A DNA stretch of 64,000 nucleotides, taken from Niameybacter massiliensis (GTDB lineage Bacteria > Bacillota > Clostridia > Lachnospirales > Cellulosilyticaceae). Shown in pieces: positions 4,358 through 62,797 of the stretch. The DNA is taken from positions 75,278-139,277 of the forward strand of contig NZ_LN875035.1 of NCBI RefSeq assembly GCF_001282685.1. The letters run 5' to 3'. The first letter of the stretch is position 1, and each line of letters starts with the position of its first letter. The notes below the pieces were generated by a model, which did no database searches, was not told where the DNA came from, and worked only from the letters and a program-made list of their open reading frames with translations. The translations under genes and the position numbers were made by a program.

Positions 4358-5461
4358 ATGACTGACCAAGAGTATATGACACGTGCTTTAGAACTGGCTC
4401 GAAAAGGTTGTGGTTTTGTAAGTCCGAATCCTATGGTTGGAGCTGTGATCGTTAAAAATAATAAGGTCATTGGGCAAGGCTGGCATGAAAAATATGGACA
4501 GCTTCATGCAGAAAGAAATGCACTGGTAGGTTGTAAAGAATCCCCTCATGGTGCAACACTCTATGTCACTCTAGAACCCTGTTGTCATTATGGAAAAACA
4601 CCACCTTGTACAGATGCTATTTTAGAGAGTGGTATCACAAGAGTTGTAATCGGAGCACTTGACCCTAATCCACTTGTATCTGGAAAAGGTGTTTCAATCT
4701 TACAAGCTAAGGGAATTGAAGTGGTGAGCGGTGTATTAGAAAAAGAATGTCTAGAACTTAATCAGGTATTTTTTCATTATATCAAAACGAAGACGCCTTA
4801 TGTGGTCATGAAGTATGCCATGACTATGGATGGAAAAATTGCAACTTCTACAGGTAAATCAAAATGGATTACAGGAGATCAAGCAAGAATACATGTACAT
4901 AAAGAACGCCATCGCTATACGGGCATCATGGTAGGCGTTGGGACAGTAATTGCAGATAATCCTATGCTTACGTGCAGGTTAGAAAATGGATGTAATCCGA
5001 TTCGTATTATCTGCGACACCCATTTAAGGACACCTTTAAACGCTCAAGTGGTAGCAACAGCTTCTAGTGTAAGGACCATTATTGCAACGTGTTGTGCGGA
5101 AAAGGACAGATACATGCCCTATGAAATAGCTGGATGTGAGATTTTACTTATTCCTAAAAAAGATAATCATATTGATTTACAAATATTGATGCAGCAACTA
5201 GGCATATTAAAAATCGATAGCCTTATTTTAGAAGGTGGCGGGACACTCAATGCTTCCGCTATGCAAAGCGGTATTGTCAACAAGGTACAGGCTTATATTG
5301 CACCAAAGTTATTTGGTGGTGATGAAGCAAGGACACCTATTGGGGGTAGCGGTATTGATGAACCAACTTATTGCTTTAAAATGAAAAATCAAAAACTCAC
5401 ATGGTTTGGAGAAGATTTGTTATTAGAAAGTGAGGTGGAATATCTGTGTTTACAGGAATAG
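4358..5461 (+). CDS. ribD: bifunctional riboflavin deaminase/reductase RibD
   Basis: RibD carries out the deamination and side-chain reduction that turn the GTP cyclohydrolase II product into 5-amino-6-ribitylamino-uracil phosphate. The 367-residue protein has the N-terminal cytidine-deaminase-like domain with zinc ligands H50 (HAERNAL) and C75/C84 (PCCHYGKTPPC). The C-terminal reductase domain runs from about residue 145, with KYAMTMDGKIAT and an LILEGGGTLN motif. The start is ATG 4358, seven bases after GGAGGA; an in-frame TTG at 4343 would overlap that site and is rejected. It is the first gene behind the FMN riboswitch and overlaps ribE by 16 bases. Confidence 0.96.
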   Translation: MTDQEYMTRALELARKGCGFVSPNPMVGAVIVKNNKVIGQGWHEKYGQLHAERNALVGCKESPHGATLYVTLEPCCHYGKTPPCTDAILESGITRVVIGALDPNPLVSGKGVSILQAKGIEVVSGVLEKECLELNQVFFHYIKTKTPYVVMKYAMTMDGKIATSTGKSKWITGDQARIHVHKERHRYTGIMVGVGTVIADNPMLTCRLENGCNPIRIICDTHLRTPLNAQVVATASSVRTIIATCCAEKDRYMPYEIAGCEILLIPKKDNHIDLQILMQQLGILKIDSLILEGGGTLNASAMQSGIVNKVQAYIAPKLFGGDEARTPIGGSGIDEPTYCFKMKNQKLTWFGEDLLLESEVEYLCLQE

Positions 5462-6075
5462 TCGAAGAGATTGGTAAAGTACAAGGCATACAGAAGGGAA
5501 TGAAATCCTCTATCCTTATGATTACCGGGAATAAAATCTTTGAAGACTTGAAGATTGGTGATAGTGTATCTACGAATGGCGTATGCCTTACAGTGTCAAA
5601 GTTAGGGAATTGTACTTTTTATGCAGATGTGATGAATGAGACACTTTCTCGTTCTGCATTAGGAAACCTTACCATTGGAAGTTGTGTGAATTTAGAACGT
5701 GCCATGGCGAGTAATGGACGATTTGGAGGACATATTGTTTCAGGGCATATTGATGGTACAGGAAAAATTGTATCTATTCATAAAGATGATAATGCTATTT
5801 GGTATACCGTACAAACGGATTCTAAGATTATGAGATATATCATTGAAAAAGGTTCTATAGCCATTGATGGCATCAGCCTTACAGTAGCAAAAGTAGAAAA
5901 GGATCATTTTAGTGTTTCAATCATTCCCCATACAGCAAAAGAAACCATACTATCTCTAAAAAGGGTAGGGGAACTTGTGAATCTTGAAAATGACATCATT
6001 GGTAAATATATTGAAAAGTTTGTTACTCCCCAGAGTAACATTACAGAAGCATTCTTATTAAAACATGGATTTTAG
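5446..6075 (+). CDS. ribE: riboflavin synthase alpha chain
   Basis: This enzyme dismutates two 6,7-dimethyl-8-ribityllumazine molecules to riboflavin and the pyrimidine intermediate. The 209-residue product has the two lumazine-binding repeats of the family, one beginning MFTGIVEEIG and the second from about residue 98 (HIVSGHIDGTG). It starts at GTG 5446 after GAGGTGGA, inside the end of ribD, so the two are translationally coupled. Ribosomes reach it only through ribD transcripts, under the same FMN control. Confidence 0.95.
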   Translation: MFTGIVEEIGKVQGIQKGMKSSILMITGNKIFEDLKIGDSVSTNGVCLTVSKLGNCTFYADVMNETLSRSALGNLTIGSCVNLERAMASNGRFGGHIVSGHIDGTGKIVSIHKDDNAIWYTVQTDSKIMRYIIEKGSIAIDGISLTVAKVEKDHFSVSIIPHTAKETILSLKRVGELVNLENDIIGKYIEKFVTPQSNITEAFLLKHGF

Positions 6076-6084
6076 GAGGGTAAT

Positions 6085-7287
6085 ATGTTTGAGTATCATA
6101 CAATACCAGAGGCTTTAGAGGCATTAAGAAAAGGTGAGATCATTCTTGTAACAGATGATGAAGATCGTGAAAATGAAGGTGACTTTATTTGTGCCACTGA
6201 ATTTGCAACAACACAAAATATTAATTTTATGGCTACCTATGGCAAGGGGCTCATTTGTATGCCAATGGATGAAGCACTTTGTGAAAAGTTAGGACTTCAT
6301 CAAATGGTAACCAACAATACAGATAATCATACAACAGCTTTTACAGTGTCTATTGATCATGTGGATACAACAACGGGTATCTCAGCAGCTGAAAGAAGTA
6401 TAACAGCATTAAAAGCCATAGATGAAGAGGCATGCCCAGAAGATTTTCGTAGACCAGGACACATGTTCCCACTTTTAGCTAAGAAAAATGGGGTGCTTGA
6501 ACGTAATGGTCATACAGAAGCGACAGTTGATCTCATGAAGTTAGCAGGATTAAAGCCATGTGGGCTTTGCTGTGAAATCATGAGAGAAGATGGACATATG
6601 ATGCGTACACCGGAACTCATTGAATTTGCAAAAGATTGGAATATGAAGTTTATAACCATCAAAGCACTGCAAGAGTATCGTAAAAGATTTGATCACCTTG
6701 TAGAGTGTATGGCAACACCTATGCTTCCAACATCTTATGGTAATTTTAGAGCCTATGGCTATGTGAATAAACTTAATGGAGAACATCATGTAGCACTTGT
6801 TAAAGGTGACATTGGTGATGGAGAAGATATACTTTGTCGTGTTCATTCAGAATGTTTAACAGGAGATGTATTTGGTTCTTCACGTTGTGATTGTGGTGAT
6901 CAATTAGCTACTGCAATGAAACAAATTGAAAAGGAAGGTCGTGGCATTCTTCTTTATATGCGTCAAGAAGGCCGTGGCATTGGATTAATAAATAAGTTAA
7001 AAGCTTATGAACTTCAACAAGCAGGAATGGATACAGCCGAAGCCAATGTTGCTCTTGGTTTTGAAGAAGATTTGAGAGAGTATTATATTGGCGCACAAAT
7101 TCTTAAAGACTTAGGCGTCAAAACCATGAGACTATTAACTAATAACCCAGATAAAGTTTATCAACTTTCCGATTTTGGAATCAAGATTGTAGAGCGTGTA
7201 TCTATTGAAATAGAGGCGAACGAACATGATGCTTTCTATCTTAAAACAAAACAATGCAAAATGGGTCATTATTTAAACATACATTAA
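6085..7287 (+). CDS. ribBA: DHBP synthase / GTP cyclohydrolase II fusion
   Basis: This 400-residue bifunctional enzyme starts both branches of riboflavin synthesis. The N-terminal half (about 1-200) is 3,4-dihydroxy-2-butanone-4-phosphate synthase, with the acidic [12 protein letters not shown] metal site. The C-terminal half (about 205-400) is GTP cyclohydrolase II, with zinc cysteines C257, C268 and C270 in [15 protein letters not shown] and the RQEGRGIGL loop. AGGAGG precedes the ATG by five bases. Length and domain order match B. subtilis RibA. Confidence 0.96.
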
Positions 7288-7311
7288 TAAAAAATTAAGG
7301 AGATTAAAAAC

Positions 7312-7779
7312 ATGAAAATCTATGAAGGAAAATTGGTATCAACAGACATTAAAATTGGAATTGTAGTCGCAAGGTTTAATGAATTTATTACAAGCAAATT
7401 ATTAGGTGGTGCAGTAGATGCCCTTACACGCCATGAAGTCAGAGAAGAAAATATTGAAGTGGCATGGGTTCCAGGGGCTTTTGAGATTCCACTTATTGCA
7501 TCTAAAATGGCAAAAAGCAATAAATATGATGCAGTCATCTGCCTTGGAGCAGTGATTCGTGGTAGTACAACACACTATGACTATGTATGTAGTGAAGTTT
7601 CAAAAGGCATTGCTAGTGTTTCTTTGAGTAGTGATATTCCGGTTATGTTTGGCGTAGTCACCACAGAAAATATTGAGCAAGCTATTGAGCGTGCAGGTAC
7701 AAAAGCAGGAAATAAAGGTTTTGATTGTGCAATGGGTGCCATTGAGATGGTGAACTTAATAAGAGAAATAGAACAATAA
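7312..7779 (+). CDS. ribH: 6,7-dimethyl-8-ribityllumazine synthase
   Basis: RibH joins the ribitylamino-uracil with the butanone phosphate to form lumazine. The 155-residue protein has the family landmarks: VARFNEFIT near the N-terminus, [26 protein letters not shown] with the catalytic-region histidine, and the C-terminal [16 protein letters not shown]. It follows ribBA by 24 bases with an AAGGAGA site and is the last classic rib gene of the operon. Confidence 0.96.
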
Positions 7780-7781
7780 GC

Positions 7782-8474
7782 ATGCTGAACTTAGTATTTG
7801 ACTATGATGGCACACTTCATAATAGTATTGAAATCTATGCACCAGCATTTAGACTGGCCTATAAGGAATTAGTTGAAAAAGGATTTGCAGAGCCAAGAGA
7901 CTATTCAGATAAAGAAATAAGCTATTGGTTAGGGTTTTCAGCAGCTGAAATGTGGCATACGTTTATGCCCACATTAGAAGCATCTCAAAAACAACATGCT
8001 AGTATGAGAATTGGCAAAGAAATGATTGGGCTTATCAAAGAAGGTAAGGCTAAGCTCTATCCACACGCATTAGAAATTTTAGAACAACTTAAAATAAAGG
8101 GTTATAACCTTATATTCTTAAGCAATTGTAAGCGTGCATATATGGAAGCACATATTGAGGCCTTTCAATTAGAACAATACTTTACTGAATTTTATTGCTC
8201 AGAAGATTATGGCTTTATACCAAAATACGAAATCTTTAATGTGATCAAGACACGTTATACAGGTGACTTTATGATTATTGGTGATCGATTTCAAGATATG
8301 GAGATCGCTCAAAAATATCAACTTGAATCAATAGGTTGTTTATATGGTTTTGGTGATGAAAATGAATTAGAAATGGCAACTTATAAGATACATACTCTAG
8401 ATGAAATAGAGCAGACGATTTGTCTATTAGAGTATCCCATTAAAGATCATACAAGCGTTTTTATAAAGGAGTAG
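7782..8474 (+). CDS. HAD-family phosphatase, candidate riboflavin-intermediate phosphatase
   Basis: This 230-residue haloacid-dehalogenase-type hydrolase has motif I FDYDGTLHNS (D7, D9), motif II FLSNC, and a late DRFQDMEIA acidic motif. A helical cap between motifs I and II places it with the type-I-cap (phosphoglycolate phosphatase-like) HADs. It starts two bases after the ribH stop and shares the operon and its terminator. Riboflavin synthesis needs a phosphatase acting between RibD and RibH. The position makes that job likely, but the substrate is inferred from context only; a general sugar-phosphate or FMN phosphatase is the alternative. Confidence 0.8.
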   Translation: MLNLVFDYDGTLHNSIEIYAPAFRLAYKELVEKGFAEPRDYSDKEISYWLGFSAAEMWHTFMPTLEASQKQHASMRIGKEMIGLIKEGKAKLYPHALEILEQLKIKGYNLIFLSNCKRAYMEAHIEAFQLEQYFTEFYCSEDYGFIPKYEIFNVIKTRYTGDFMIIGDRFQDMEIAQKYQLESIGCLYGFGDENELEMATYKIHTLDEIEQTICLLEYPIKDHTSVFIKE

Positions 8475-8491
8475 CGAAGGCTACTCTTTTT
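8470..8491 (+). terminator. rib operon terminator
   Basis: AGTAGC and GCTACT form a 6-bp stem with a 4-base loop, followed by CTTTTTT. The stop codon of the HAD gene lies inside the stem. Confidence 0.75.
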
Positions 8492-8624
8492 TGATGTTAA
8501 TTTATTTTTGTCTATACGACACTATACTACACAAAATGCTCTATAAATTTGTTACAATACTACTATATTTTCAGATAATGGTTCAACTTATTTATAAGGA
8601 CAAGAAGGAACTGGGGGATAGCCA

Positions 8625-10229
8625 ATGTTAAAAGTATTTTTAGTCGAAGATGAATTTGCTGTACGCGAACGTATGAAAAAGAACATGGATTGGGAGGTAC
8701 ATGGGTTCTGCTTAGTGGGAGAAGCAGGAGATGGGGAATTAGCTTATCCTATGATTCAGGAATTACAACCAGATATTTTGATTACAGATATTCGCATGCC
8801 TTTTATGGATGGACTACAACTTATAGAACTCATAAAGCCAAGTATGCCTAAGATGAAAATTCTTATTTTAAGTGGCTATGATGAATTTGACTATGCAAAG
8901 GAAGCCATTCGTCTAGGTGTAACGGATTATTTACTTAAGCCCATTACATCTAAAAAGCTTCTAGAATCGCTAAGTGAAGTGGCCAATCTTATTAATAAGG
9001 AAAAACAACAAGAAGCGCACTATGAGCAGTGGCAGTTTGAAAACCAAGAAAAGTTTCAACTTGCTAAAAAGAAGTTTTTTTATGATTTAGTAACGGGTAG
9101 GCAAGGTATTCAGGCATTGATTGAAAAAGCTAAGGAATTGGAGCTAGATTTAACAGCCACAGCTTATAATATTATGCTTTTTAAAGTCTCATTTATAGAC
9201 AAGTTATCCCTAACAGATGAAGAAGCTTTAAGACAAACCTTAAAAAACTATTTAAGCTTACAAAAACAGCTATTAGTATGTGAACGAGATGGGGAGGGCT
9301 ATGCCATTTTATTAAAGGGCTCAGATGGAAATCTATCAAGTTTAGAACAAAATCTCATTACCCAAATTTCTGAACTTTTAAAAGCCTATCCTATTATGCA
9401 TTATACATTAGCACTAGGAGAAAAAGTCAGTAGAATGAGTGAAATCCCTCATGCCTATGATACAGCAAGCCAAGCTTTAGCTTATCGTTATCTTCTGAAT
9501 GACACACAAGTCTTACGCTATGATGCACTCAAAGATTATAATACCTTTGTTTCCAATCATTCTTTGGATTTACAGGAAGTTATCATTCCCAAAATAGATA
9601 AGAGGAAGTTAGAAAACTTTTTACATGACGGAAGAATTGAAGAGGTTCCTACTTTTATAAGTACCTATTTTAATCATCTGGATGAAAGTTTAGAGTCTTA
9701 TTTGTTCCGTCAGTATCTGGTGATGGATATTTATTTTAGTATGACTACTTTTTGTGAACAACTTGAAATACCACCAGAAAAAATTGAACAACTTTATGGC
9801 AATTTACAAAATGTAAATTGCTTTATGCAAGATAAAGCAATTTTTAAGCAAACCATTGAAAACTGGTTACTTCAGAGTATCAAACTTCGTGAGTCTATAA
9901 GTAGTAAGCGCTATAATGCATTAATCAATCAAGTTAAACGTTACTTACAAGATAACTATAATAAAGAAACCTTATCCCTCAATCAAGTCGCCGAGTATGT
10001 GGGGATTAGTCCTAGCCATCTGAGTACACTTTTTAGTCAAGAAACAGGCCAAACCTTCGTCTCTTATTTAACGGAAATACGTATGGAAAAGGCAAAAGAA
10101 CTTCTCCGTTGCACCAATATGAAGACGTTAGAGATCGGCTATGAAGTCGGCTATAAAGATCCACATTACTTTAGCTACCTTTTTAAGAAAACACAAAGTT
10201 GTACACCTAAAGAATATAGGAGAGCTTAG
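8625..10229 (+). CDS. YesN-type response regulator with AraC output domain
   Basis: This 534-residue regulator has an N-terminal receiver domain (about 1-120) with phospho-acceptor D55 in ILITDIRMP, the acidic pocket VEDE at 7-10, and K104 in LLKPI. A long middle region of the YesN kind follows. The C-terminal AraC/XylS double helix-turn-helix lies at about 430-534 (SLNQVAEYVGISPSHLSTLF and IGYEVGYKDPHYFSYLFKK). It is paired with the sensor kinase that starts one base after its stop. In Firmicutes such YesMN pairs control the sugar ABC transporter next door, here the YtfQ-type importer. Confidence 0.92.
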   Translation: MLKVFLVEDEFAVRERMKKNMDWEVHGFCLVGEAGDGELAYPMIQELQPDILITDIRMPFMDGLQLIELIKPSMPKMKILILSGYDEFDYAKEAIRLGVTDYLLKPITSKKLLESLSEVANLINKEKQQEAHYEQWQFENQEKFQLAKKKFFYDLVTGRQGIQALIEKAKELELDLTATAYNIMLFKVSFIDKLSLTDEEALRQTLKNYLSLQKQLLVCERDGEGYAILLKGSDGNLSSLEQNLITQISELLKAYPIMHYTLALGEKVSRMSEIPHAYDTASQALAYRYLLNDTQVLRYDALKDYNTFVSNHSLDLQEVIIPKIDKRKLENFLHDGRIEEVPTFISTYFNHLDESLESYLFRQYLVMDIYFSMTTFCEQLEIPPEKIEQLYGNLQNVNCFMQDKAIFKQTIENWLLQSIKLRESISSKRYNALINQVKRYLQDNYNKETLSLNQVAEYVGISPSHLSTLFSQETGQTFVSYLTEIRMEKAKELLRCTNMKTLEIGYEVGYKDPHYFSYLFKKTQSCTPKEYRRA

Positions 10230-16660: not shown

Positions 16661-16787
16661 TATTAAAATTATGAACTTGTATTTAAAATAAATAAGCTAT
16701 ATTATATAGTTATATATAAAAAAAACTAGAGTTTTGAAATTTCTTATAATATTTGCTTTAATTATGCTGAAAAGGGGCATTTGTAGT

Positions 16788-18815
16788 ATGAAAAATTTCT
16801 TAAATGTACTGAGTGAAAGTATATGCCTAATAGATGAAGCTGGAAAAATTAGCTTTATAAATTCAGCCTTTTTCAATATATTAGGCTATCAACAAAATGA
16901 AGTTGATTTTTCCAGTGTTGTACAAAATATATTTATACAAGAGAACGAAGTCAATAATAGCATTATTGCTTACTCCAAATCGGGACAACGATTAAAAGGT
17001 TCTTGTCAGTTTGAAACCGTTCATTTAGAAGGTATTAACTATAAAGGTTGTATCATCAAATGGATTCAAGAAGATAAAGGTGAATTTTTAGAAGCTTTTT
17101 TAGATGCAATAGAAGAAAGTGTATCTATAAAAGATTTAGAGGGTTATTACGTTTTTGCTAATCAAAAATGTGCTAAAAATTATAAAACGACGAAAGAAGC
17201 AATCATTGGTCAAACATCAGAAGCCTTTTCCACAGTTAAAGAAAGTAAACGCATTAGTGAAAATGAAGCCTATATTATGCGTACAGGCGAAAAACTTACA
17301 CTAGAACGACGAGAAGAAAAAGCTGGACTGGTTAACTATTTTGAAATTACAGGGATACCCTTATATGGTCCCAATGGAAATATGAAATATATAGGCATAT
17401 TCAAAAAAAATATAACAGTTACCAAAAACCTTGAGCACTTTGTATCTGAAAGTGAACATCTCTTTAGTAAAGCAAAGGAAAGTTATTTATACGATCAAGA
17501 AATTGATGTGGGAAGTGATGAACCATTAAAAGAATTGGGCAATTTACTCAAATATTATTTTAAAACAGACTATTATGACATATGGTTATACAATAAAAAA
17601 GAACAAAATATATATGCTTATTTTAAAAATGGTATGTTAAAAGATTATAAACCGAATAACTTCACTTTTCCTATGACTGATGAAATGCTTAAGAAGTATT
17701 CAGAAGAAGAGGATGGGCTTATTAAAGAAACATTTGAAGTACATATTAGTGATAACGAATATATTTATAGAAAAGAACCTTACTATCTTATAGAATCTAA
17801 AATTGTTTATCGTGGTGAGCTTTTAGGTATACTTGTCCTAGTGTATGAAAAATATCCACAGCATTTTTATGCTAGGCGTTATTTAATGGGTAAAATTTGT
17901 AATCAACTTGCATTGATTATTAAGAATAGAAATCTAACAGAAGCACTTCATTGTGCAATGGTTACAGAAAAAACTTTACTTCAAGAAAGAGCTGAAGCTG
18001 AGAAAGCACTTCAACTTGAACGCATGAGAAGTGAGTTTTTTGCCAATCTATCTCATGAATTTAGAACACCTCTAAATATTATTTTATCAGCCTCTAAGCT
18101 TTTAGAATATACCCTTCAAGAATATCCTAAAGATCCAGAAATAGAGAAGTATTTAACCTATATCTGTAATATTAAGCAAAATGGCTATCGTCTTTTGAAA
18201 TTGGTCAATAATCTTATTGATATAACACAAATTGACTCTGGTTACTATAAAATGTATTTTTCCAATTATAATATTATTTATATTGTAGAAGAGATTGTAG
18301 ATTCAGTAGTCAATTATGCTGAGAGCAATAATATAAGTATAATATTTGATACAGAGGTAGAAGAAGAAGTCATTGCTTGTGATCCAGAGAAAATTGAACG
18401 AATTATGCTCAATCTTCTTTCCAATGCCATTAAATATGCCAAATTACCCGGACATATTAATGTTCTCATTTCATTAGAACAGGAGTATATAGTTATTGCA
18501 GTTCAAGATAATGGTGTGGGGATTCCACCAGATAAGATTGAAACGATCTTTGAGCGTTTTATTCAAGTCAATGACCTACTCACTAGACCTAAAGAAGGAA
18601 GCGGAATTGGGTTATCTTTAACAAAAGCACTTGTAGAAATGCACGGTGGTAATATTAGTGTCTTAAGCACTTTAGGTGAAGGGTCAACCTTTGAAGTCCG
18701 TTTACCTAGAATTCAAGTGAAAGAAGAAAAACGATATACTGAATCTGAAAGATTTGGATTTGAATCAAATCTGGAAAGATGTCATGTGGAATTTTCTGAT
18801 ATCTATACCTTTTAA
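16788..18815 (+). CDS. cytoplasmic PAS-domain sensor histidine kinase
   Basis: This 675-residue kinase has no transmembrane segment. PAS1 lies at about 5-110 (ICLIDEAGKISFINSAFF) and PAS2 at about 112-230 (DLEGYYVFANQKCAKNY). A GAF-like region at about 235-390 and a short coiled coil follow. HisKA has H423 in FFANLSHEFRTPLN, and the HATPase has NLLSNAIKYA, DNGVGIP, FERF and GSGIGLS. ATG 16788 follows AAAGGGG by ten bases; earlier in-frame starts have no site. No response regulator is adjacent, so it is an orphan whose partner is elsewhere. It probably senses an internal signal such as redox state or a small ligand. Confidence 0.88.
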   Translation: MKNFLNVLSESICLIDEAGKISFINSAFFNILGYQQNEVDFSSVVQNIFIQENEVNNSIIAYSKSGQRLKGSCQFETVHLEGINYKGCIIKWIQEDKGEFLEAFLDAIEESVSIKDLEGYYVFANQKCAKNYKTTKEAIIGQTSEAFSTVKESKRISENEAYIMRTGEKLTLERREEKAGLVNYFEITGIPLYGPNGNMKYIGIFKKNITVTKNLEHFVSESEHLFSKAKESYLYDQEIDVGSDEPLKELGNLLKYYFKTDYYDIWLYNKKEQNIYAYFKNGMLKDYKPNNFTFPMTDEMLKKYSEEEDGLIKETFEVHISDNEYIYRKEPYYLIESKIVYRGELLGILVLVYEKYPQHFYARRYLMGKICNQLALIIKNRNLTEALHCAMVTEKTLLQERAEAEKALQLERMRSEFFANLSHEFRTPLNIILSASKLLEYTLQEYPKDPEIEKYLTYICNIKQNGYRLLKLVNNLIDITQIDSGYYKMYFSNYNIIYIVEEIVDSVVNYAESNNISIIFDTEVEEEVIACDPEKIERIMLNLLSNAIKYAKLPGHINVLISLEQEYIVIAVQDNGVGIPPDKIETIFERFIQVNDLLTRPKEGSGIGLSLTKALVEMHGGNISVLSTLGEGSTFEVRLPRIQVKEEKRYTESERFGFESNLERCHVEFSDIYTF

Positions 18816-18850
18816 AAAAGTCGCTACACGCCATGTGTAGCGACTTTTTT
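18814..18850. terminator. histidine kinase gene terminator
   Basis: A perfect 16-bp stem (18814-18829 with 18835-18850) with flanking A and T runs follows the stop. Confidence 0.88.
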
Positions 18851-18942
18851 GTTTATATTTCATTCTATTTGTTATTGATTAGAGTATGAAATACTTCCAA
18901 TTAGAAAATACTATAGGGATATAAAATTAACGGAGTGATTAG

Positions 18943-20205
18943 ATGAAACGTCAATCGATAGTAGGCTATACCACCTTGGTCATTATTATAGTGAGCTTTG
19001 TTTTTCTCTACTGGATGCGCACTAGGCCACCAGAAGTTAATGCCATACTAGAAAGTAAGTGTATTCCAGTAACGACCTATACCGTCACTGAAAGAGAAAT
19101 TGCAACCTATCAAAACTATTCTGGTAAGCTACAAAGTGGTGAAGAAGCAAAAATTATCCCACAGGTTCTATCTAAAGTTGTTGCTATCCATGTAAAAGAA
19201 GGCGATCTTGTAAACGTTGGAGATGCCCTTATGGATTTAGATACAACAACGCTTAATAACCAGATACAAAGTGCCTCTGAAGGTATTGAAAAACTAAAAT
19301 CTTTTAATGAGACACTGGAATCTGGGGGTGAAAAACTAGCATCTATACTGCAAGACATTGATCATCAAATAGCTGACATTGAATCCCATTTAGATCGACT
19401 AGAAAAAGAACAATCCACTATGTATGCAGGTACAACCTATAAGAAAAATATGACAGCCTTAGAAAGTGAATTGGAATCACTAAAAATGCTTAAGCAAACC
19501 CTTACTGCGATTACACCTAATACAACAGATTCTATAGACCGTTTGGATGCTTTAGAAGACGGTTATCAAATGCTTATAGGGATGAAGTCTCAATATCATC
19601 TTACGTCTCCATTAAATGGACGTATCGTTGCAGTCAACGCTAAAACAGGTGAAGTGCCCAATTTTTTAGCCCCTTCTTTTATTATCACAGGAACAGAAAA
19701 CTTAAAACTTAGCCTAGCAGTTCCGAAAGAACATTTGACTTATTTTCAAGATGTAAGTCCCTTAATAGTAGAGGTATTTACCTTAAAAGGGGAACCTTTA
19801 AATCTTGAAGGAAGGGTAGAAGAGGTCCATAATGAACCAGATGCAAAAACAGGGCTTTATGCAGTAAACATTGTCATGCCAAATCCAAACCTCCCTTTAG
19901 ATACAACGAGTTTTGGGAAAGTGCATATTCCTTTACTTACTAAGTCAAACGCTTGTGTCATTCCAAAAGATGCTATCATACGTACACAAAATGAAAACTA
20001 TATTTACATTTTAAGTTCAACCCTTCCCAATACCGTAGAAAAGCGTACAGTTAGAATTGGCATAGAAAATGATGATGAAATTGAAATCATTGAAGGGCTT
20101 ATAAAGGGCGATATCATTATTTTAGATGGAAATGCCTATCTTCAAGATGGAGATACTGTAGAAGTTGTTTCACCTCTAGAAACCCATTCCTCTACAACAT
20201 GGTAA
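18943..20205 (+). CDS. RND efflux membrane-fusion (adaptor) protein
   Basis: This 420-residue adaptor has an N-terminal membrane anchor (about residues 8-25). A lipoyl/barrel-sandwich half reads KIIPQVLSKVVAIHVKEGDLV, and a coiled-coil hairpin lies at about 105-190. The returning barrel half (SPLNGRIVAVNAKTGE) leads into beta-barrel domains. It is the partner of the RND pump that starts 19 bases later. In a cell without outer membrane the adaptor should help export across the cytoplasmic membrane and wall, as in the B. subtilis SwrC-type systems; the substrate is unknown. Confidence 0.88.
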   Translation: MKRQSIVGYTTLVIIIVSFVFLYWMRTRPPEVNAILESKCIPVTTYTVTEREIATYQNYSGKLQSGEEAKIIPQVLSKVVAIHVKEGDLVNVGDALMDLDTTTLNNQIQSASEGIEKLKSFNETLESGGEKLASILQDIDHQIADIESHLDRLEKEQSTMYAGTTYKKNMTALESELESLKMLKQTLTAITPNTTDSIDRLDALEDGYQMLIGMKSQYHLTSPLNGRIVAVNAKTGEVPNFLAPSFIITGTENLKLSLAVPKEHLTYFQDVSPLIVEVFTLKGEPLNLEGRVEEVHNEPDAKTGLYAVNIVMPNPNLPLDTTSFGKVHIPLLTKSNACVIPKDAIIRTQNENYIYILSSTLPNTVEKRTVRIGIENDDEIEIIEGLIKGDIIILDGNAYLQDGDTVEVVSPLETHSSTTW

Positions 20206-20224
20206 ATTTAGAAAGGAAAATACT

Positions 20225-23215
20225 ATGAAGCTAACAGATTTAAGTATTAAAAGGCCTGTGACAACCTTTATGGTTCTATGTATTATTTTACTTTTTGGTT
20301 TTATTGCCTTTTTTAAACTTAATATTGATTTACTCCCTTCTTTTGATCTTCCTATGTTGATGGTCATGACCCATTATACAGGTGCTAGCCCCAGTGAAGT
20401 TGAAGACCTGATTACAGAACCCTTAGAAGGTGTACTTGCGACGACAAATCAAGTGAGTAGCATAGATTCTATCTCATCAGAAGGTACTTCCATGATGATG
20501 CTTTCTTTTGCAGAGGGAACAGATATGGATTTTGCCGCTCTTGATGTCAGAGAAAAGGTTGACCTAATCAAGCCCTTATTGCCAAATGGTGTGGTATCCC
20601 CTATTATTATGAAACTCAATCCCAATATGATGCCTATTGGTCATTATAGTATTACTCTTAATGCACGTAGTCTGAGTGAAACGACGGACTTTGTAACATC
20701 TACACTTGTTCCCACTCTGAAACGTATACCAGGTGTTGCCAACATTCAAGTAACCGGTGGCGTCAATAGAGCACTTCGATTAGTTGCAGATATAGATAGA
20801 CTCAGTACGTATGGACTCAGTTTAAATCAGCTCAACCAACTGATTAGAAGTGAATATCGTACTTTACCAGGCGGGGTGATTGAAGAGAGCAACTCTAAAC
20901 TGAATATTCATGTTCAATCGAGTGCACTTACCAAAGAAGATCTGAAGCATTTAGTTGTCAGTAACCAAGACGGTAGACCTATTACATTAGATGAACTTGT
21001 AGAATTTGAAGAAGTTTATGCGGAAACTTCAAGTTATGCCAACGTAAATGGTGAGCCTAGTATTTTATTCTCTATACAGAAAGAGTCTACAGCAAACACT
21101 GTAACTGTTTCAGAAGAAGTTGAAAAAGTGTTAAAACAACTCCAAGTAGACAACCCTGGACTTTCCGTAGATGTCTTATTTAATCAAGGAGTGATCATTA
21201 ATCAGTCCATTAAAGCCATTGGAAGCAATGCTTTAATAGGTGCTTTATTAGCAGTTGTTATTCTCTTTTGCTTTTTAAAAGATTTCCGTACGACTTTAAT
21301 TATGGCCGTATCCATTCCTATATCTGTTATTACAACTTTTGTCTTTATTTATTTCTTTCATCTTACACTTAATATGATTTCATTAGGTGGTATCGCCCTT
21401 GGCGTTGGCATGCTTGTTGATAATGCCATTGTTGTGATTGAAAATATTCATCGTTTAAAGCAACAAGGACTTTCACCAGCTGAAGCTGCCTATAAAGGTA
21501 CAACAGAAGTAGCACAAGCTGTTACAGTTTCTACATTGACAACCATTAGTGTCTTTCTACCTGTTGTGTTTGTTCAGGGGATTTCTGCCCAAATCTTTAA
21601 AGAACTTGCTTTTACTGTTACCTTTTCTCTTGTAGCTTCCCTTGGTGTTTCGTTTACAATTGTGCCACTTCTTGCAAGTCGCCTTTTAAGCGTTGAATCA
21701 TTAGAGAAAAAGCACTTGATTTTAAATTCACTACGACATAAATATAAACAAGTCCTTATATGGGGATTACACACTAAGAAAAAGGTGACTGTTCTTGTAC
21801 TCCTTGTACTCATAATGGGTGGTTTTGCACTTCAAGGCGTAGGTTTTACCTTTTTTCCATCGGCCGACCAAGGTATTGTTTATGTTACAGTCAATCTTCC
21901 TAAAGGAAAGACAGATACTGCCGTACGTCTCGTATGCGACGAAGTCTTGCAGCGTATCAAAGGGATTGAAGATATTGAAACGATTTCACTTACAATGGAT
22001 AAGTCAAGTAGTCGTGCAGATATTATGCTTGTTCTTGACCCTTTACAAACGAGAAAGCTTACGGATAAGGATGTAACAAAGGCTATTATGGAGACAACTA
22101 AAAATATTCCAGGAGCCAAAATCTCAGCATCTACAGGTGGAAGCCTAATGAGTAGTGGGAATAACGGTATCACCATTAATATACTGGGAGAGGAGCTAGA
22201 GGAACTTGAAGTACTGGGGGATGCCATACAAGGTTTATCTAAATCTATAACGGGTGTTATGGAAGTTGCTTTTAAAGAAAGCCGAAGTGCCCCCTCTGTA
22301 GCCATACAAGTCAATCAAAGTGAGGCAAGCCAATATGGATTAAGTAGTGCCCAAGTTGCCAATGCCATTCAAAATGCCATGCGTCCTATTTCTGTTATGA
22401 CATTAGAGGATGAAGAGGGACCTATAGAGGTTGAACTTTATAGTCAAACAGCTTTAGGAAGTGGATTGACTGAAATCCAAAACTTAACATTAAGTTCCCT
22501 TAAAGGAAGTCGTGTACCTTTAAGTGCTGTAGCGACTTACCAAAGAGAAGTGGGGTATCACCAAATTGAACGGTCCAATCAAACCCATTTACTTAGTCTC
22601 GATGTAATCATAGAAGGGCGAACGATAGGACAAGTTTCAAAGGATCTTGAAAATGTATTTGAACAGTTAAATATACCAGAAGGATATCATGTGGTACTGG
22701 GTGGGCGGGTGGCACAAATGAAAGACTCCTTTAGCATGCTGTTTATGGCATTAGGGATTGCAGTATTATTGGTCTATATGATTATGGCTGCTCAATTTGA
22801 ATCGTTTATTCAACCTTTATTTATTATGATGATTGTACCTATTGCATTTGCGGGAGGCATTTTAGCTTTATTTATTGGCAATGTCCCTGTTTCTATGCCT
22901 GCTCTAATAGGATTTATCGTATTGTCGGGTATTGTTGTAAACAATGGGATTGTCCTTTTAGATTTTATAAATAAACTTAGAAAAGAAGGGAAAGGTGTAG
23001 AAGAGGCTATTATAGAAGCTGGAATGACAAGAGTCCAACCTATTTTGATGACCACTTTTACAACAGTCCTTGGACTTTTGCCTATGACCTTAGGAATTGG
23101 TCAGGGGGCAGAAATCCAGCTTCCATTAGCCTTAACGGTTACAGGTGGATTGCTACTTTCTACAGTTTTGACCCTTGTCGTTATTCCAGTCATTTATGAT
23201 CAATTTGTACAATAA
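20225..23215 (+). CDS. RND-family efflux pump (AcrB/SwrC type)
   Basis: This 996-residue proton-driven exporter has the two-fold repeated RND architecture. TM1 is near residue 14, large external loops lie at about 35-330 and 545-835, and two six-helix bundles follow. The TM4 proton-relay motif reads GMLVDNAIVVIENI, with one Asp followed by Asn where AcrB has two Asp; TM10 reads GIVVNNGIVLLDFIN. It forms an operon with the upstream adaptor gene and ends before a bidirectional terminator. Substrates could be lipopeptides, detergents or drugs. The gene is complete. Confidence 0.92.
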   Translation: MKLTDLSIKRPVTTFMVLCIILLFGFIAFFKLNIDLLPSFDLPMLMVMTHYTGASPSEVEDLITEPLEGVLATTNQVSSIDSISSEGTSMMMLSFAEGTDMDFAALDVREKVDLIKPLLPNGVVSPIIMKLNPNMMPIGHYSITLNARSLSETTDFVTSTLVPTLKRIPGVANIQVTGGVNRALRLVADIDRLSTYGLSLNQLNQLIRSEYRTLPGGVIEESNSKLNIHVQSSALTKEDLKHLVVSNQDGRPITLDELVEFEEVYAETSSYANVNGEPSILFSIQKESTANTVTVSEEVEKVLKQLQVDNPGLSVDVLFNQGVIINQSIKAIGSNALIGALLAVVILFCFLKDFRTTLIMAVSIPISVITTFVFIYFFHLTLNMISLGGIALGVGMLVDNAIVVIENIHRLKQQGLSPAEAAYKGTTEVAQAVTVSTLTTISVFLPVVFVQGISAQIFKELAFTVTFSLVASLGVSFTIVPLLASRLLSVESLEKKHLILNSLRHKYKQVLIWGLHTKKKVTVLVLLVLIMGGFALQGVGFTFFPSADQGIVYVTVNLPKGKTDTAVRLVCDEVLQRIKGIEDIETISLTMDKSSSRADIMLVLDPLQTRKLTDKDVTKAIMETTKNIPGAKISASTGGSLMSSGNNGITINILGEELEELEVLGDAIQGLSKSITGVMEVAFKESRSAPSVAIQVNQSEASQYGLSSAQVANAIQNAMRPISVMTLEDEEGPIEVELYSQTALGSGLTEIQNLTLSSLKGSRVPLSAVATYQREVGYHQIERSNQTHLLSLDVIIEGRTIGQVSKDLENVFEQLNIPEGYHVVLGGRVAQMKDSFSMLFMALGIAVLLVYMIMAAQFESFIQPLFIMMIVPIAFAGGILALFIGNVPVSMPALIGFIVLSGIVVNNGIVLLDFINKLRKEGKGVEEAIIEAGMTRVQPILMTTFTTVLGLLPMTLGIGQGAEIQLPLALTVTGGLLLSTVLTLVVIPVIYDQFVQ

Positions 23216-52279: not shown

Positions 52280-53131
52280 TTAATTTTTTGTAAAATGGAT
52301 TTGTTTTGTATAGCCAACTAACTGATAGCCGATGGCTTCATACATTTTGTTGGAGATAGGATTATCTCTATCTGCAAAAAGCGCAACAAAGTCATGGCCT
52401 TCATCTAAAAGTCTTTGACTAATTGTGCCTACACAGGCTGTAGCATAATGTTGGTTTCTAAAGTAAGGTGGGGTATAAACATTTGAAATGACGATTCCAT
52501 TTTTAAGTTGGCGCCCTTTGCCTACCATAGATACAGGGTGGTTATCTTTCCATATATAAAACCTTTCATTTTCAAGACTTGTTTCTATGCTCTTAACAAT
52601 GGTATCAAAGGATGATGGAGGCAAATGACACTCTTTAATAAAGTGTTCTTGCCAATAAGGAAGATAAGAAAGCGCATCTAATGTTGCACATTCTAAAGAA
52701 CCTTTAATAGCTTGATAAGCATTGACGGTAGTAAGTTTATAGGCATTAAGTCTCATTATTATTTTACTTAGTTGACGTGTATACGTACAATAAAATAAAC
52801 TAAAGGTCTCTGCAGTCTCATCTTCACCGATAACACCTGGTATACTTATTTTTTTCTCATAAAGTGTTTTAGCTAAAAACTGTAATGCTTCTTGTGCTTT
52901 AGCCTTTGGAGGTGTGTAGAGGCAAAGATTAAAAGGTGGTGTATGAACAGCTATGACAAGGATGTTACCAGCTTCATCTTTGACTGTTGCCATAAAACTT
53001 CCTTCTATAGGACTTTTTTCTAATCTTAATATATTGCCAACAAGTAAGTTATTTGCTGCTTCATTTTTAAGTAACATAGGAAATGTTTCTTCTTTAAAAT
53101 GTGTTGCATTCTCATAAATGGTATAATACAT
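52280..53131 (-). CDS. GNAT-family acetyltransferase, intact paralogue
   Basis: This 283-residue two-part acetyltransferase has a helical N-terminal region (LLKNEAANNLLVGNILRL). The C-terminal GNAT core reads YTPPYFRNQHYATACVGTIS, the acetyl-CoA motif with R-x-x-x-Y/G-A spacing, and FADRDNPISNKMYEAIGY. The next gene upstream is a close paralogue that carries a nonsense mutation. The substrate is unknown; similar Clostridia proteins are annotated only as acetyltransferases. GAGGGGG precedes the ATG. Confidence 0.85.
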   Translation of the reverse strand: MYYTIYENATHFKEETFPMLLKNEAANNLLVGNILRLEKSPIEGSFMATVKDEAGNILVIAVHTPPFNLCLYTPPKAKAQEALQFLAKTLYEKKISIPGVIGEDETAETFSLFYCTYTRQLSKIIMRLNAYKLTTVNAYQAIKGSLECATLDALSYLPYWQEHFIKECHLPPSSFDTIVKSIETSLENERFYIWKDNHPVSMVGKGRQLKNGIVISNVYTPPYFRNQHYATACVGTISQRLLDEGHDFVALFADRDNPISNKMYEAIGYQLVGYTKQIHFTKN

Positions 53132-53240
53132 TCTTCTTGCCCCCTCACTTAACCTTTAAACTTACAAATTATAAATTCTAAAAATAATTATAAAAAAGTA
53201 AAATTATTCTGTAATTAGTATTTTTGATTATATAGTGCAT

Positions 53241-54095
53241 TTAGTATTTTGTAAAGACTATATCTTTTACATGCCCGATAAGTTTATACCCCATTTTTTG
53301 ATAGACCTTATTTGAGGAGATATTATTTCTATCTGCATACAGTACAGTAAAGGTATTTCCTTCAGCTAAAAGTTTCTCACTTAAAGCAGCAACACAACTA
53401 GATGCATATTGCTTTCCACGATAATAAGGTGGGGTATAAACTTAACATACTGCACATCCATTCATAAATTGTCTGCCTTTAGCTGCAATAGAAACGGGAT
53501 GGTCATCTTCCCATATGTAGGCGAATTGATGTTTAATAATATGCTCGATAGCCCTAAAGTTCTGCATCAATGTTGATGTAGGGAAATGACAATCTTTCTG
53601 AAAGTCTCTTAACCAATAAGGTAAAAAGTATAAATCTTCATAAGTTATGGGTCTTAACCGTCCCTTAGCTTTTACTAGAGGTATAAGCTCTGTTAACTTA
53701 TACACATTAAGATACATACGTACTCTTGGACGCACGTTTTGATAGATGCTATAAAATGTACTAAATACATCAATTAGATGCTCATTCCCTACAATCCCTT
53801 GGAAAGCAATTTGTCTTTCAACCATTATTTTAGCTAAAAAGCTTAATACCTCTTGACACTTGGTATCTTCCTTTGCATAAATACAAAGACTATATGGTGT
53901 AACTTTTCCGATAATAGCTTGTATTTCACCCTTCTCACTCTTCACGGTACCCATGACATGATCTTCTAGATGTGTGTATTCATATTTGAGTATACTTGCA
54001 ATAAGTAAGTTGTTCTCTGCTTCATTTTCAAGTAGTACAGGCAAAGTTTCTTCTTTAAAAAGTAATGTATCATGATAGGAGGTATAGAAATACAT
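53241..54095 (-). pseudogene. GNAT paralogue broken by one stop codon
   Basis: The frame from ATG 54095 encodes a protein alignable along its length with the 283-residue neighbour (LLENEAENNLLIASILKYE, AYIWEDDHPVSIAAKGRQFMNG). It stops at TAA 53442-53444. Past that codon the same frame continues with VYTPPYYRGKQYASSCVAAL and ADRNNISSNKVYQKMGYKL to TAA 53241-53243, giving a full length of 284 codons plus stop, within a residue of the paralogue. The stop replaces Asn of NVYTPP. The truncated product of 217 residues lacks the acetyl-CoA motif. Confidence 0.85.
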
Positions 54096-59728: not shown

Positions 59729-61132
59729 TTACTTATTATGAAGGTTTACTTTGGCTTTGTTAAAAAGTAAAAGGGGAAGTTGACCACCACGATCAATAGG
59801 TACAACCCCTCTTGGAAATCGTCCTTGACCACAACTTACATAACAGTCGCCTTCAGGCTTCCTACTCATCTTGAACTGGATACGATTGCCTAGAAGTTGG
59901 TAACTTGCAAGTTCAATTTTACCTATAGAATCTTCTATTTGGAAAGCTAAGTCGCTTACAGCCACATCAAAACTTTCTAAACGTTCATAAACAGGTGCAA
60001 AGGTAAGTTCTATGCACCCTGTATCTAATAAAGAAGCAGATTGAAGATTGGGTGGGGTTCCTTCAATACCTTTGTCATAAAGTTGCTCTAGGGCAAGTCG
60101 TGCCATTCTTTCACCTAATACCATATTAGCTGGAGAAGCATTATGAATTGCATCTGATAAAGTAGAATCAATAGATGGGATTATATACACATTATCTATT
60201 ATCATTGTTGCTTGACGTTGCGCTTCTCTTACCATAGACCACCCTTCATCGGAACGATTTTGTGCAGTTTCATTACCTAAGTTATTAACAACCCGGTTTA
60301 ACTGAACCGTCAATATTGGAAGTTCGGGTTGATTTAAGTCTTTTCTTAATGCCTGTACCATTGTCTTAAAACGTTCTAAATAAGAATGAGCTAAATCTAA
60401 GGTATCTGTATCAGTACATCCTTGATACCATAATACACCTTTAATCTTATCTGTCGTTGATTGGATTACTTCTAACATATTGTGGTATAAATAGCCTTCT
60501 TCTTCAGGATTCCACGCACTAAGTGGTGAACCGCCTAAAGCCGTCTGAATCAATCCAATAGGATAGGCTAAGTCTCTTTTTAAGCGTTTGGCAAAACTTA
60601 AATAAGGTGAATGACCTGGATTAGCCCCTTCACGATTTATACTATGAAGCGTATGGGTAGATTCATTAAAAGGATGGCTCGCTAAGTCCCATTGTCCACT
60701 ATTTCGGAGTAAGTGAATGCCTAATTCTGGTGGATCAAATACGGGTCCTTTGCCATATCCAGCAGAATTACTTTGCCCAGCTATAACAAAGAGATCACCG
60801 ATCCCAACATGGTGAATCATATCCCCGCGAATCGCCCATTCTATAGGATTCCCTATATTTTCTTTTAAGCAAGTTTCAATACGATAGAGGCCACCTGCAG
60901 GTACCTCTTTTAAAATGATTTCCCATTCGCCATCTTGCATTTTAGTAGCTTCTTGCCATCTGATAACATTTTCAAAGGTATCTTCTAAGACAACTCTTGC
61001 CCAGACTCTAGCTTCTTCACAATGTGCATGAACATCATATGTACCTTTTAACGTAATATTTGCTTTTCCTTCAACTTGTTGGATGATTTGCCAAGGTTGT
61101 GGTCCTTGTGTAATAATGGCTCCAATATTCAT
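59729..61132 (-). CDS. sialate O-acetylesterase-like (SASA) carbohydrate esterase
   Basis: This 467-residue protein has the SASA-domain block FVIAGQSNSAGYGKG, with the catalytic serine of the SGNH fold, plus LIQTALGGSPLSAWNP, VLWYQGCTDTD and DAIHNASPANMVLGERMA with the catalytic-region histidine. The family removes acetyl groups from sugars. A beta-sandwich-like N-terminus precedes the esterase. No signal peptide is visible, so it acts in the cytoplasm on imported oligosaccharides. It follows the SGNH-alpha/beta hydrolase gene by 12 bases with AAGGAG, so the two are cotranscribed. Confidence 0.82.
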   Translation of the reverse strand: MNIGAIITQGPQPWQIIQQVEGKANITLKGTYDVHAHCEEARVWARVVLEDTFENVIRWQEATKMQDGEWEIILKEVPAGGLYRIETCLKENIGNPIEWAIRGDMIHHVGIGDLFVIAGQSNSAGYGKGPVFDPPELGIHLLRNSGQWDLASHPFNESTHTLHSINREGANPGHSPYLSFAKRLKRDLAYPIGLIQTALGGSPLSAWNPEEEGYLYHNMLEVIQSTTDKIKGVLWYQGCTDTDTLDLAHSYLERFKTMVQALRKDLNQPELPILTVQLNRVVNNLGNETAQNRSDEGWSMVREAQRQATMIIDNVYIIPSIDSTLSDAIHNASPANMVLGERMARLALEQLYDKGIEGTPPNLQSASLLDTGCIELTFAPVYERLESFDVAVSDLAFQIEDSIGKIELASYQLLGNRIQFKMSRKPEGDCYVSCGQGRFPRGVVPIDRGGQLPLLLFNKAKVNLHNK

Positions 61133-61144
61133 GATGATGACTCC

Positions 61145-62797
61145 TTAGTTTGAAATTTGTTCTATGGATTGGATAAATGTAACAATTGGGCTTGGATCTT
61201 CTAAGCTGTGAGGATGATGCCCAATATGAGGTTTTACGATAACTGTAATGTCTCTTTCTTGGGCTTTGCATAAATGGACTAATTTCTCACCATTTTCTTC
61301 ATAAGGCACCACTTCATCTGCATCTCCAGCCACTAAAATAATAGGAATCTGTGTGTTCACTAAGTCATTCATTGCTTCTAAAGCTTTTGATTTAAAATAA
61401 GTTTTTGCATCTTTTTCATCTAAAGCATACTGCCAGAGGGCTTGTTGCCAATCTAAAGATGAGCCAATCCCTTTTCCTAAACTACCTGGCCAACTACATA
61501 GGTCGAGTACAGGTGCATCAAGATAAATACTTCTTAATGCTTCAGGGTACTGGGTTGCATAATGCATCGTATAAAGGCCACCTCTACTAAATCCAAATAA
61601 ATCTACTTGAGAATTCAAGTTAAAGTCTTTAACAACTTTTGTATAGAAGTCGTGCATCAGTTCAACAGATTGAGGATTGCCATACATATCACTTAGATTA
61701 CAGTATGCAAGATGCCAACCAGCTTCAAGAAGTGCCATGTCTGCATAGCTAAAAGCATCGAAGAACTCTGCACGCCATACCCAGTGACGCATCTTGGTTG
61801 GTACTTTAGGTTCGATGAGGATACATTCTCTTCCTTGGCTATAAAATTGATAGCCTTTATACCCTTTAAAAGTGATCGTCTCAATGGCTTCACAAGGTTG
61901 TTCTTGTAAAAGGAGTTCATTAATTTGTATTTGCACAGCTTCAACTTTTGATTGTAAGTTTTCAATCCCAACAGATTGTAAAACTAATGCTTCATTCCCA
62001 TGTCCAATATCCTCAAGTAATGTATCACTAATAAGGTGATTCTTGTACTCGATAAGTTTATAGAGTGCATTTTGTTCTGGATATTCTACATATTCAGGGA
62101 CACGCTCAAGAGAAATATTAAAAAGTTGCTTTAATAGAGCTTTTGTAAATAAGAAATGTCCCATGCTACAAACATGGATGCCATCACCTGATACATAGTG
62201 AGGATCTTCTAAACGTTTTGCATCAATATAGGCTGCAACGTCACTATAAATATCAATAGTGCCTAGACCTAGCGGTTCTGACATAAGCCACTTACCATAG
62301 TCTTGTAAAACTTGATCATATCCTTCATAAGGTTTCATAAACCCATAGTCATCCCCATACGCGTCTTTGAGACAAGTTGGATCTATCATCTGTGCATCAA
62401 AGGGTGGTGGCGTTAGGCAAACCAAATCACAACCTTTTTGTTCCACTATTTTTGCCAGTTGTCTCATACCCTTTTGATATGCATCCAAGCGCTCGTCACT
62501 TGGTGGATGATAAATGCCATCATTCATCCCATAACATGCGATGACTAAATCAGGCTGAATCTTCTCTAGAGTAGGCTCAAGTCTTTGAAAGATGCAAGGT
62601 CTTAAGAAAGGATGATGAGCTTCTGAAAGACCTGAAGCCGTTTCACTACTCAATCCTAAATTGATAAGCATAGGTTTTGATTCATTAAAATGTGTTGTTA
62701 AATACGTATCCATATAGTTCACATAGTGTGCAAGATAAGTGATACTATCCCCTAGAAATAAAATCTTTTTGTAATGCTGTAGGTCTATAGGTTTCAT
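61145..62797 (-). CDS. SGNH esterase fused to alpha/beta hydrolase
   Basis: This 550-residue protein joins two different hydrolase folds. The N-terminal half (about 8-235) is an SGNH/GDSL esterase with ILFLGDSITYL, YGMNDGIYHP and a late GDGIHVCSMGH supplying Asp and His. The C-terminal half (about 305-550) is an alpha/beta hydrolase with nucleophile elbow GFSRGGLY, LDAPVLDLCSWP and GDADEVVPY plus a terminal HIGHHPHSL. There is no signal peptide. The downstream gene is a SASA-type esterase, so a two-gene deacetylation unit for acylated sugars is likely. The exact substrate is unknown. Confidence 0.82.
   Translation of the reverse strand: MKPIDLQHYKKILFLGDSITYLAHYVNYMDTYLTTHFNESKPMLINLGLSSETASGLSEAHHPFLRPCIFQRLEPTLEKIQPDLVIACYGMNDGIYHPPSDERLDAYQKGMRQLAKIVEQKGCDLVCLTPPPFDAQMIDPTCLKDAYGDDYGFMKPYEGYDQVLQDYGKWLMSEPLGLGTIDIYSDVAAYIDAKRLEDPHYVSGDGIHVCSMGHFLFTKALLKQLFNISLERVPEYVEYPEQNALYKLIEYKNHLISDTLLEDIGHGNEALVLQSVGIENLQSKVEAVQIQINELLLQEQPCEAIETITFKGYKGYQFYSQGRECILIEPKVPTKMRHWVWRAEFFDAFSYADMALLEAGWHLAYCNLSDMYGNPQSVELMHDFYTKVVKDFNLNSQVDLFGFSRGGLYTMHYATQYPEALRSIYLDAPVLDLCSWPGSLGKGIGSSLDWQQALWQYALDEKDAKTYFKSKALEAMNDLVNTQIPIILVAGDADEVVPYEENGEKLVHLCKAQERDITVIVKPHIGHHPHSLEDPSPIVTFIQSIEQISN

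Follow-up and report, generated by a model that had tools for sequence, protein, structure and literature searches.

Fused CE6-CE1 acetyl-feruloyl esterases of Bacteroidetes carry an SGNH-fold (CE6) and an alpha/beta-fold (CE1) domain in one protein, and the whole B. ovatus CE6-CE1 protein reportedly boosts a xylanase more than its separate domains do (PMC7110780). Fll4 contains three esterase domains, and similar domains constitute three separate esterases in D. mossii (PMC12247016). In the gut Firmicute Roseburia intestinalis, two cytoplasmic acetyl esterases, RiCE2 and RiCEX, are reported as jointly deacetylating imported manno-oligosaccharides (PMC6385246).

The stretch of DNA analysed here (the window, 64,000 nucleotides of the Niameybacter massiliensis genome) resembles the CE6-CE1 case in that an SGNH-fold and an alpha/beta-fold hydrolase (ABH) are joined in one protein of 550 amino acids plus stop (61145–62797, minus strand), as identified from the ORF, Pfam and a structure model. 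The original prediction of two serine hydrolase folds in a single protein is thus borne out, as are its coordinates, to which the strand can now be added, and its motifs GDSIT and GFSRGG, which occupy residues 16–20 and 402–407. The window protein can be aligned over its full length with 29 other proteins, and an AlphaFold2 model built from an alignment of 30 SGNH-ABH proteins is confident (pLDDT 87.8, pTM 0.88); the structural comparison proposed with the prediction finds both folds in this model, with the catalytic residues of each complete. The fusion is present as a single copy in the genome (search at E up to 0.001), and the ORF upstream of it on the same strand matches arginyl-tRNA synthetase.

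The SGNH domain (residues 1–240; 62078–62797, minus strand) matches Lipase_GDSL_2 (PF13472) over residues 14–139 with 35.8 bits, above the curated cut-off of 32.9. SGNH hydrolases are defined by the block residues Ser, Gly, Asn and Asp-x-x-His, which correspond here to Ser18 (of GDSIT), Gly48, Asn92, Asp205 and His208, and these positions are conserved: in the alignment of SGNH homologues, Ser, Gly and Asn are invariant in 32/32 sequences and the Asp/His pair is kept in 31/32, the sole exception being the frameshifted L028. Four loci were left out of this alignment, namely L019 (contig end), L060 (insert), L096 (weak match) and L045. In the last of these, an SGNH-ABH ORF of Cohnella fermenti (7254–8744), both GDSIT and DGIH are gone from the SGNH half but the ABH half keeps its residues, and the ABH domains of L055 and L063, which have no SGNH domain, are nested among SGNH-ABH rows of the ABH tree; two sites are therefore not always needed. 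The suggestion that one half serves as a binding domain only does not fit the residue conservation, to which L045 is a clear exception.

The best profile match of the SGNH half among solved structures is BT4096 (7br2, E 2.8e-18), to which it is also similar in fold (Z 22.3 over 271 residues, model residues 1–303). A difference is that BT4096 is not among the chains to which the ABH profile gave a match. The acetyl xylan esterase Axe2 of Geobacillus (3w7v and 5bn1; profile E 7e-13 and 4.5e-13, respectively) has the same SGNH fold (5bn1: Z 20.4, 187 residues, 22% identity) and an intracellular role, but it is a single-domain protein of 219 amino acids. The BT4096 alignment spans a helical extension that follows the SGNH domain (residues 241–303; 61889–62077, minus strand; delineated from the alignment and the structure model) and in which relatives carry the conserved stretch AWKEHVGHTNPNK. 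The extension is missing in L035. In L029 and L031, where SGNH is a protein of its own, that protein ends with the same extension, which therefore looks like a component of the SGNH module and not like a fusion linker.

The ABH domain (residues 304–550; 61148–61888, minus strand) belongs to the alpha/beta hydrolase superfamily by its G-x-S-x-G elbow, its Asp and His residues and its fold matches. Several alpha/beta hydrolase Pfam models match it, their best stretches lying between residues 381 and 527: Abhydrolase_1 scores 31.8 bits, Peptidase_S9 31.7 bits (cut-off 22.6) and the CE1-type Putative esterase family (PF00756) 28.7 bits (cut-off 22), below the other two. The candidate catalytic residues are Ser404 (GFSRGG), Asp494 (GDADEVVP) and three histidines, His527, His528 and His530 (HHPHSL). 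The Ser, the Asp, all three His and both glycines of the nucleophile elbow are invariant in 85/85 aligned domains, the second elbow residue being F, L or V. This alignment comprised 78 of the 80 best loci described below, L017, L020, L021, L022, L024, L026 and the window; L043 and L067 (copies of L020 and L026) and the near-copies L018, L019 and L025 were dropped. The possibility that homologues lack a triad, which would have weakened the case for two activities, is thus realised in L045 for the SGNH half, against intact residues in all aligned ABH domains and in all but one of the aligned SGNH domains.

In fold comparisons, S9 peptidases fill much of the list for the ABH half (Z about 19–21), slightly above BD-FAE (6tkx, 6xyc; Z 19.1–19.2, with 19.2 for 6xyc), an alpha/beta carbohydrate esterase with a Ser-Asp-His triad (PMC8165983). 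Its identity to the ABH half is only 12–13%, and the sequence matches are partial. No close solved relative of the ABH half was found by sequence or profile comparison with solved structures. By these comparisons with solved structures, the ABH half appears to form a family of its own. The CE19 enzyme BT1017 is described as having a cap domain and, close to its triad, a Zn site built from two Cys and two His (PMC7939467).

These features set the window fusion apart from the known systems. The fusion protein gave no match to the SASA family (PF03629) at E up to 0.1; lacking SASA/CE6 character in its SGNH half, it falls outside the CE6-CE1 type. Its ABH half, as noted, stands as a family apart, and inspection by eye reveals no export signal. 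CE6-CE1 and Fll4 differ further in being encoded in xylan utilisation loci (PMC7110780, PMC12247016). RiCE2 and RiCEX provide the closest model of how the window system may work; they differ in that both are of the SGNH type and come from two genes of a mannan locus (PMC6385246). That the fusion was not known as a characterised enzyme holds in so far as literature searches, which left most subscription papers outside their reach, found no paper on the SGNH-ABH domain pair, but fusions of SGNH and alpha/beta esterases as such are known. We conclude that the fusion is real, conserved and not found described, and that its kind is already known.

The next gene, as predicted, encodes a SASA-type esterase (59729–61132, minus strand; 467 amino acids plus stop) that matches PF03629 with 170.6 bits against a cut-off of 24.8. 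SASA enzymes carry the motifs GQSN and D-x-x-H, represented here by Ser121 (GQSN) and by Asp327 and His330 (DAIH); the Ser, Asp and His are kept in 8/8 rows of the SASA alignment, from which L096, cut at a contig end, was omitted. The structure model of this protein is of moderate quality (pLDDT 69.5). Neither its N-terminus nor that of the fusion protein resembles a signal peptide by eye, in agreement with the prediction. At the junction (61133–61147, minus strand), the TAA stop of the fusion overlaps AAGGAG (TAAGGAG), a Shine-Dalgarno-like sequence by eye, and the SASA ATG follows the stop after 12 bases, as predicted. The ATG lies one stop and four codons away in the same frame, and read-through of the stop to give one three-esterase protein was considered; it was rejected as the default because a Shine-Dalgarno-like site overlaps the stop and because the in-frame arrangement arises by chance in one of three adjacent gene pairs. 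Promoter and terminator scans gave numbers near those of shuffled sequences (12 vs 13.2 and 3 vs 2.1, respectively).

A scan of genome contigs with the ABH-half alignment returned at least 570 related stretches in species genomes. A single-sequence scan of the same contigs had found no relative; since the alignment gave at least 570, that negative is a matter of sensitivity. The best 80 of these loci were kept and typed by local profiles. An SGNH-ABH fusion in one ORF is found in 27 of them (L045 included), the reverse ABH-SGNH fusion in one (L028), and separate adjoining ABH and SGNH genes in two (L029, L031). SASA adjoins ABH in six and is fused to it in one ORF in one (L096), a second such ABH-SASA ORF (L021) lying outside the count of the best 80. 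In the other 43, a partner was undetected by the local profiles, or in 42 if L098 is set aside, where an SGNH of a different type is fused to ABH behind an N-terminus that is signal-peptide-like by eye. The partners are thus rearranged: SGNH-ABH fusions, reversed ABH/SGNH neighbours, ABH-SASA ORFs, SASA genes beside ABH genes and ABH genes alone all occur, and the partners stay together in varying order, fused or not. Of the two partners of ABH, SASA is the less frequent and was found with it in Clostridia only in this survey. As a constant companion of the fusion it fails, for among the SGNH-ABH loci, several of which are on short contigs, it was found near the fusion in the window only.

In the taxonomic order to which the window belongs, 14 of 392 genomes were matched, four of them by weak SGNH-only hits near E 1e-4. 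The SGNH-ABH fusion is present in three other genomes of the order (G100, G159 and G179, the last cut at a contig end); in G145 the two halves lie at two contig ends, four genomes (G009, G011, G012, G178) have ABH without a detected SGNH, and G347 has ABH-SASA in one ORF. A phylum-wide search with the ABH profile (E up to 1e-3) hit 32 of 398 genomes; all matches outside the own genome (343.6 bits) scored under 33 bits, so 1/398 was counted as a family member. Phage records gave zero matches to the query, and plasmids gave partial matches in two records.

The partnership was quantified in a family other than that of the window, f56, in which the SGNH and ABH halves were searched separately in 187 genomes (E up to 1e-20) and the rows matched by hand. 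SGNH is present in 31 genomes, ABH in 21 and both in 15, compared to 3.5 expected (Fisher p 1.8e-9, uncorrected for relatedness). In all 15 the two are either fused (12 genomes, one open frame of 530–782 amino acids, with G882 matching only half of the ABH profile) or adjacent (G861, G951 and G922, the ABH of G922 being broken). Unpaired, SGNH occurs without ABH in 16 of its 31 genomes and ABH without SGNH in six. SASA (E up to 1e-40) gave 22 matches in 14 of the 187 genomes, five of which also have ABH; 0 of these 22 matches adjoin ABH. The SGNH-ABH partnership is therefore strong in f56, and a SASA partnership is not seen there.

The ABH tree was computed with a quick method from 85 rows, with SH-aLRT support only, and two of its labels were assigned by hand: L022 as SGNH-ABH, since the two halves lie at two contig ends in that genome, and L098 as another SGNH type. 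On this tree the SGNH partnership requires at least seven changes and the SASA partnership three. One group is made up of the six loci with SASA adjoining ABH (support 98), and a second one of the two ABH-SASA ORFs (support 99); the branch of the window row is long and its place unsure. A SASA tree of 13 rows, in which L096 contributes only 26% of the columns and from which L171 was dropped (stops), also separates the six adjacent loci from the ABH-SASA ORFs, and the window SASA is not firmly placed. Gene order differs as well: in the six adjacent loci SASA precedes ABH, and in L021, L096 and the window it follows. Given these separate groups and the differing order, the SASA-ABH association is likely to have arisen separately more than once.

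The surroundings of these genes vary. When 100 genes neighbouring SGNH+ABH loci and 113 neighbouring other loci were scanned with Pfam, no constant cluster emerged, and the idea that the fusion travels with glycoside hydrolase genes found no backing as a general rule. In 100 of the 185 SGNH+ABH neighbours, AraC-type regulators were the commonest Pfam family (8), ahead of ABC transporter domains (5); HpaB occurred in 4 and GH88 in 2. Sugar-linked genes are matched in frequency by unrelated ones, among them regulators, transporters, an amidohydrolase and an aldo/keto reductase. A glycoside hydrolase was found in 0 of 10 further window ORFs scanned (43 ORFs of at least 200 amino acids were listed). 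Some members do have sugar-linked neighbours: two fucosidase-family genes accompany the L021 ABH-SASA gene, one about 40 nt before it and another upstream; the solo SASA of L168 adjoins fucosidase, GH106 and GH42 genes; GH88-like genes stand beside L056 and L063 (the L063 match just under the cut-off); and a WbsX gene adjoins L062. An assignment to RG-II or another pectin was considered on the basis of the fucosidase, GH106, GH42 and GH88-like neighbours and set aside, as they occur in too few loci.

Combining these findings, we propose, with a probability of about 50%, that the fusion is a cytoplasmic two-site serine esterase, that the SASA protein adds a third site, and that all three act on one acyl-decorated substrate. 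Each fold of the fusion, both sites being active, would form an acyl-serine intermediate through its own Ser-Asp-His, and the SASA gene would supply its site from the same message, as the short gap (12 bases) and the ribosome-binding sequence overlapping the stop suggest. The enzymes would remove acyl groups, most probably acetyl, possibly in a relay, from different positions of the same imported decorated substrate, which would then be open to cutting by other enzymes. This substrate is most likely a sugar chain, presumably a plant-type oligosaccharide. The predicted cytoplasmic three-activity module on imported oligosaccharides thus survives in part: the predicted sites are complete and the fusion is conserved, but SASA is inconstant and we infer the oligosaccharide substrate.

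Several observations could be read otherwise. The pair might hydrolyse small-molecule esters, such as plant secondary metabolites or drugs, instead of oligosaccharides, given that the nearest solved SGNH structure, BT4096, is titled a diltiazem-metabolising enzyme, that genes of HpaB-type aromatic hydroxylases lie upstream of four fused genes (L030, L033, L040, L073), and that a constant sugar gene cluster was not seen in the neighbour scans. These four loci, however, form one small Paenibacillus clade (support 97), about 490–690 nt separate the end of their HpaB genes from the fusion ORF, the names of Axe2 and of the listed SASA enzymes point to carbohydrates, and the fucosidase, GH88-like and WbsX genes directly adjoin some members, which makes this reading rather unlikely. 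A related question is whether ABH is the working enzyme and SGNH and SASA are exchangeable helpers that widen its specificity or only stabilise it. The 42 of the best 80 ABH loci without detected SGNH or SASA would agree with this, as would the dead SGNH half of L045 and the nesting of L055 and L063, but these 80 loci came from an ABH query, hence ABH is present in them by construction. With an SGNH query, 16 of 31 SGNH-bearing f56 genomes proved to be without ABH, so SGNH also stands alone, and its active-site residues are kept as described; we consider a mere helper role unlikely.

That the ABH half is an S9-type peptidase, making the fusion an esterase plus a peptidase, is highly improbable: Peptidase_S9 is among its best Pfam matches and S9 peptidases are prominent among its fold matches, but general esterase and hydrolase families score about equally, Pfam finds no propeller domain, and the partners seen are of the SGNH and SASA esterase types. 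Near-fused and broken states do exist, as in L031 (7911–9623), where the ABH gene precedes the SGNH gene in the same frame and only one stop codon divides them, and in its close relative L028, which has no such stop and is frameshifted later in the SGNH part; they might suggest that a sequencing or assembly error has joined two genes in the window. As the same fusion recurs as one ORF in 27 of the best 80 loci and in 12/187 f56 genomes, and the window protein is alignable over its whole length with 29 others, the chance that it is an artefact is negligible.

Returning to the proposed joint esterase, we suggest tentatively a broader version, in which ABH founds an uncharacterised carbohydrate esterase family that has repeatedly recruited SGNH and SASA, be it by fusion or by adjacency. 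The window, with the fullest form encountered in this survey, would then encode three esterases on one message that jointly strip a complex acetylated, perhaps pectin-like, oligosaccharide inside the cell. Esterases limit the breakdown of decorated plant glycans, and their families are incompletely mapped. Here, two known esterase types partner a family that numbers at least 570 related stretches and has no closely related structure among those solved, and the rearrangement of the three types around this uncharacterised family is a point worth following. The fusions are concrete esterase pairs for testing, and what each half contributes can be measured directly in natural variants with a dead SGNH half, with split genes or with the order swapped.

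Some further observations were made in passing. A 762-amino-acid ORF of the window (876–3164) is without a Pfam match at E up to 1e-5, and two adjoining ORFs of 283 and 217 amino acids (52280–54095) have starts that are similar by eye, the second appearing shortened. At 16734–23215 of the window, a gene for a PAS histidine kinase precedes genes for a membrane-fusion-type protein and an AcrB-type transporter; the named relatives of the genome here are mostly Clostridia. The Cohnella fermenti strain of L045 has a second ABH without SGNH (L063). Beside the SASA gene of L170 lies a 995-amino-acid protein (4999–7983) in which Pfam recognises only a C-terminal acetyltransferase, the rest looking GH106-like by eye. 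In L106 (271–2444), an ABH gene is followed after about 29 nt by a gene for a membrane-bound O-acyltransferase (MBOAT).
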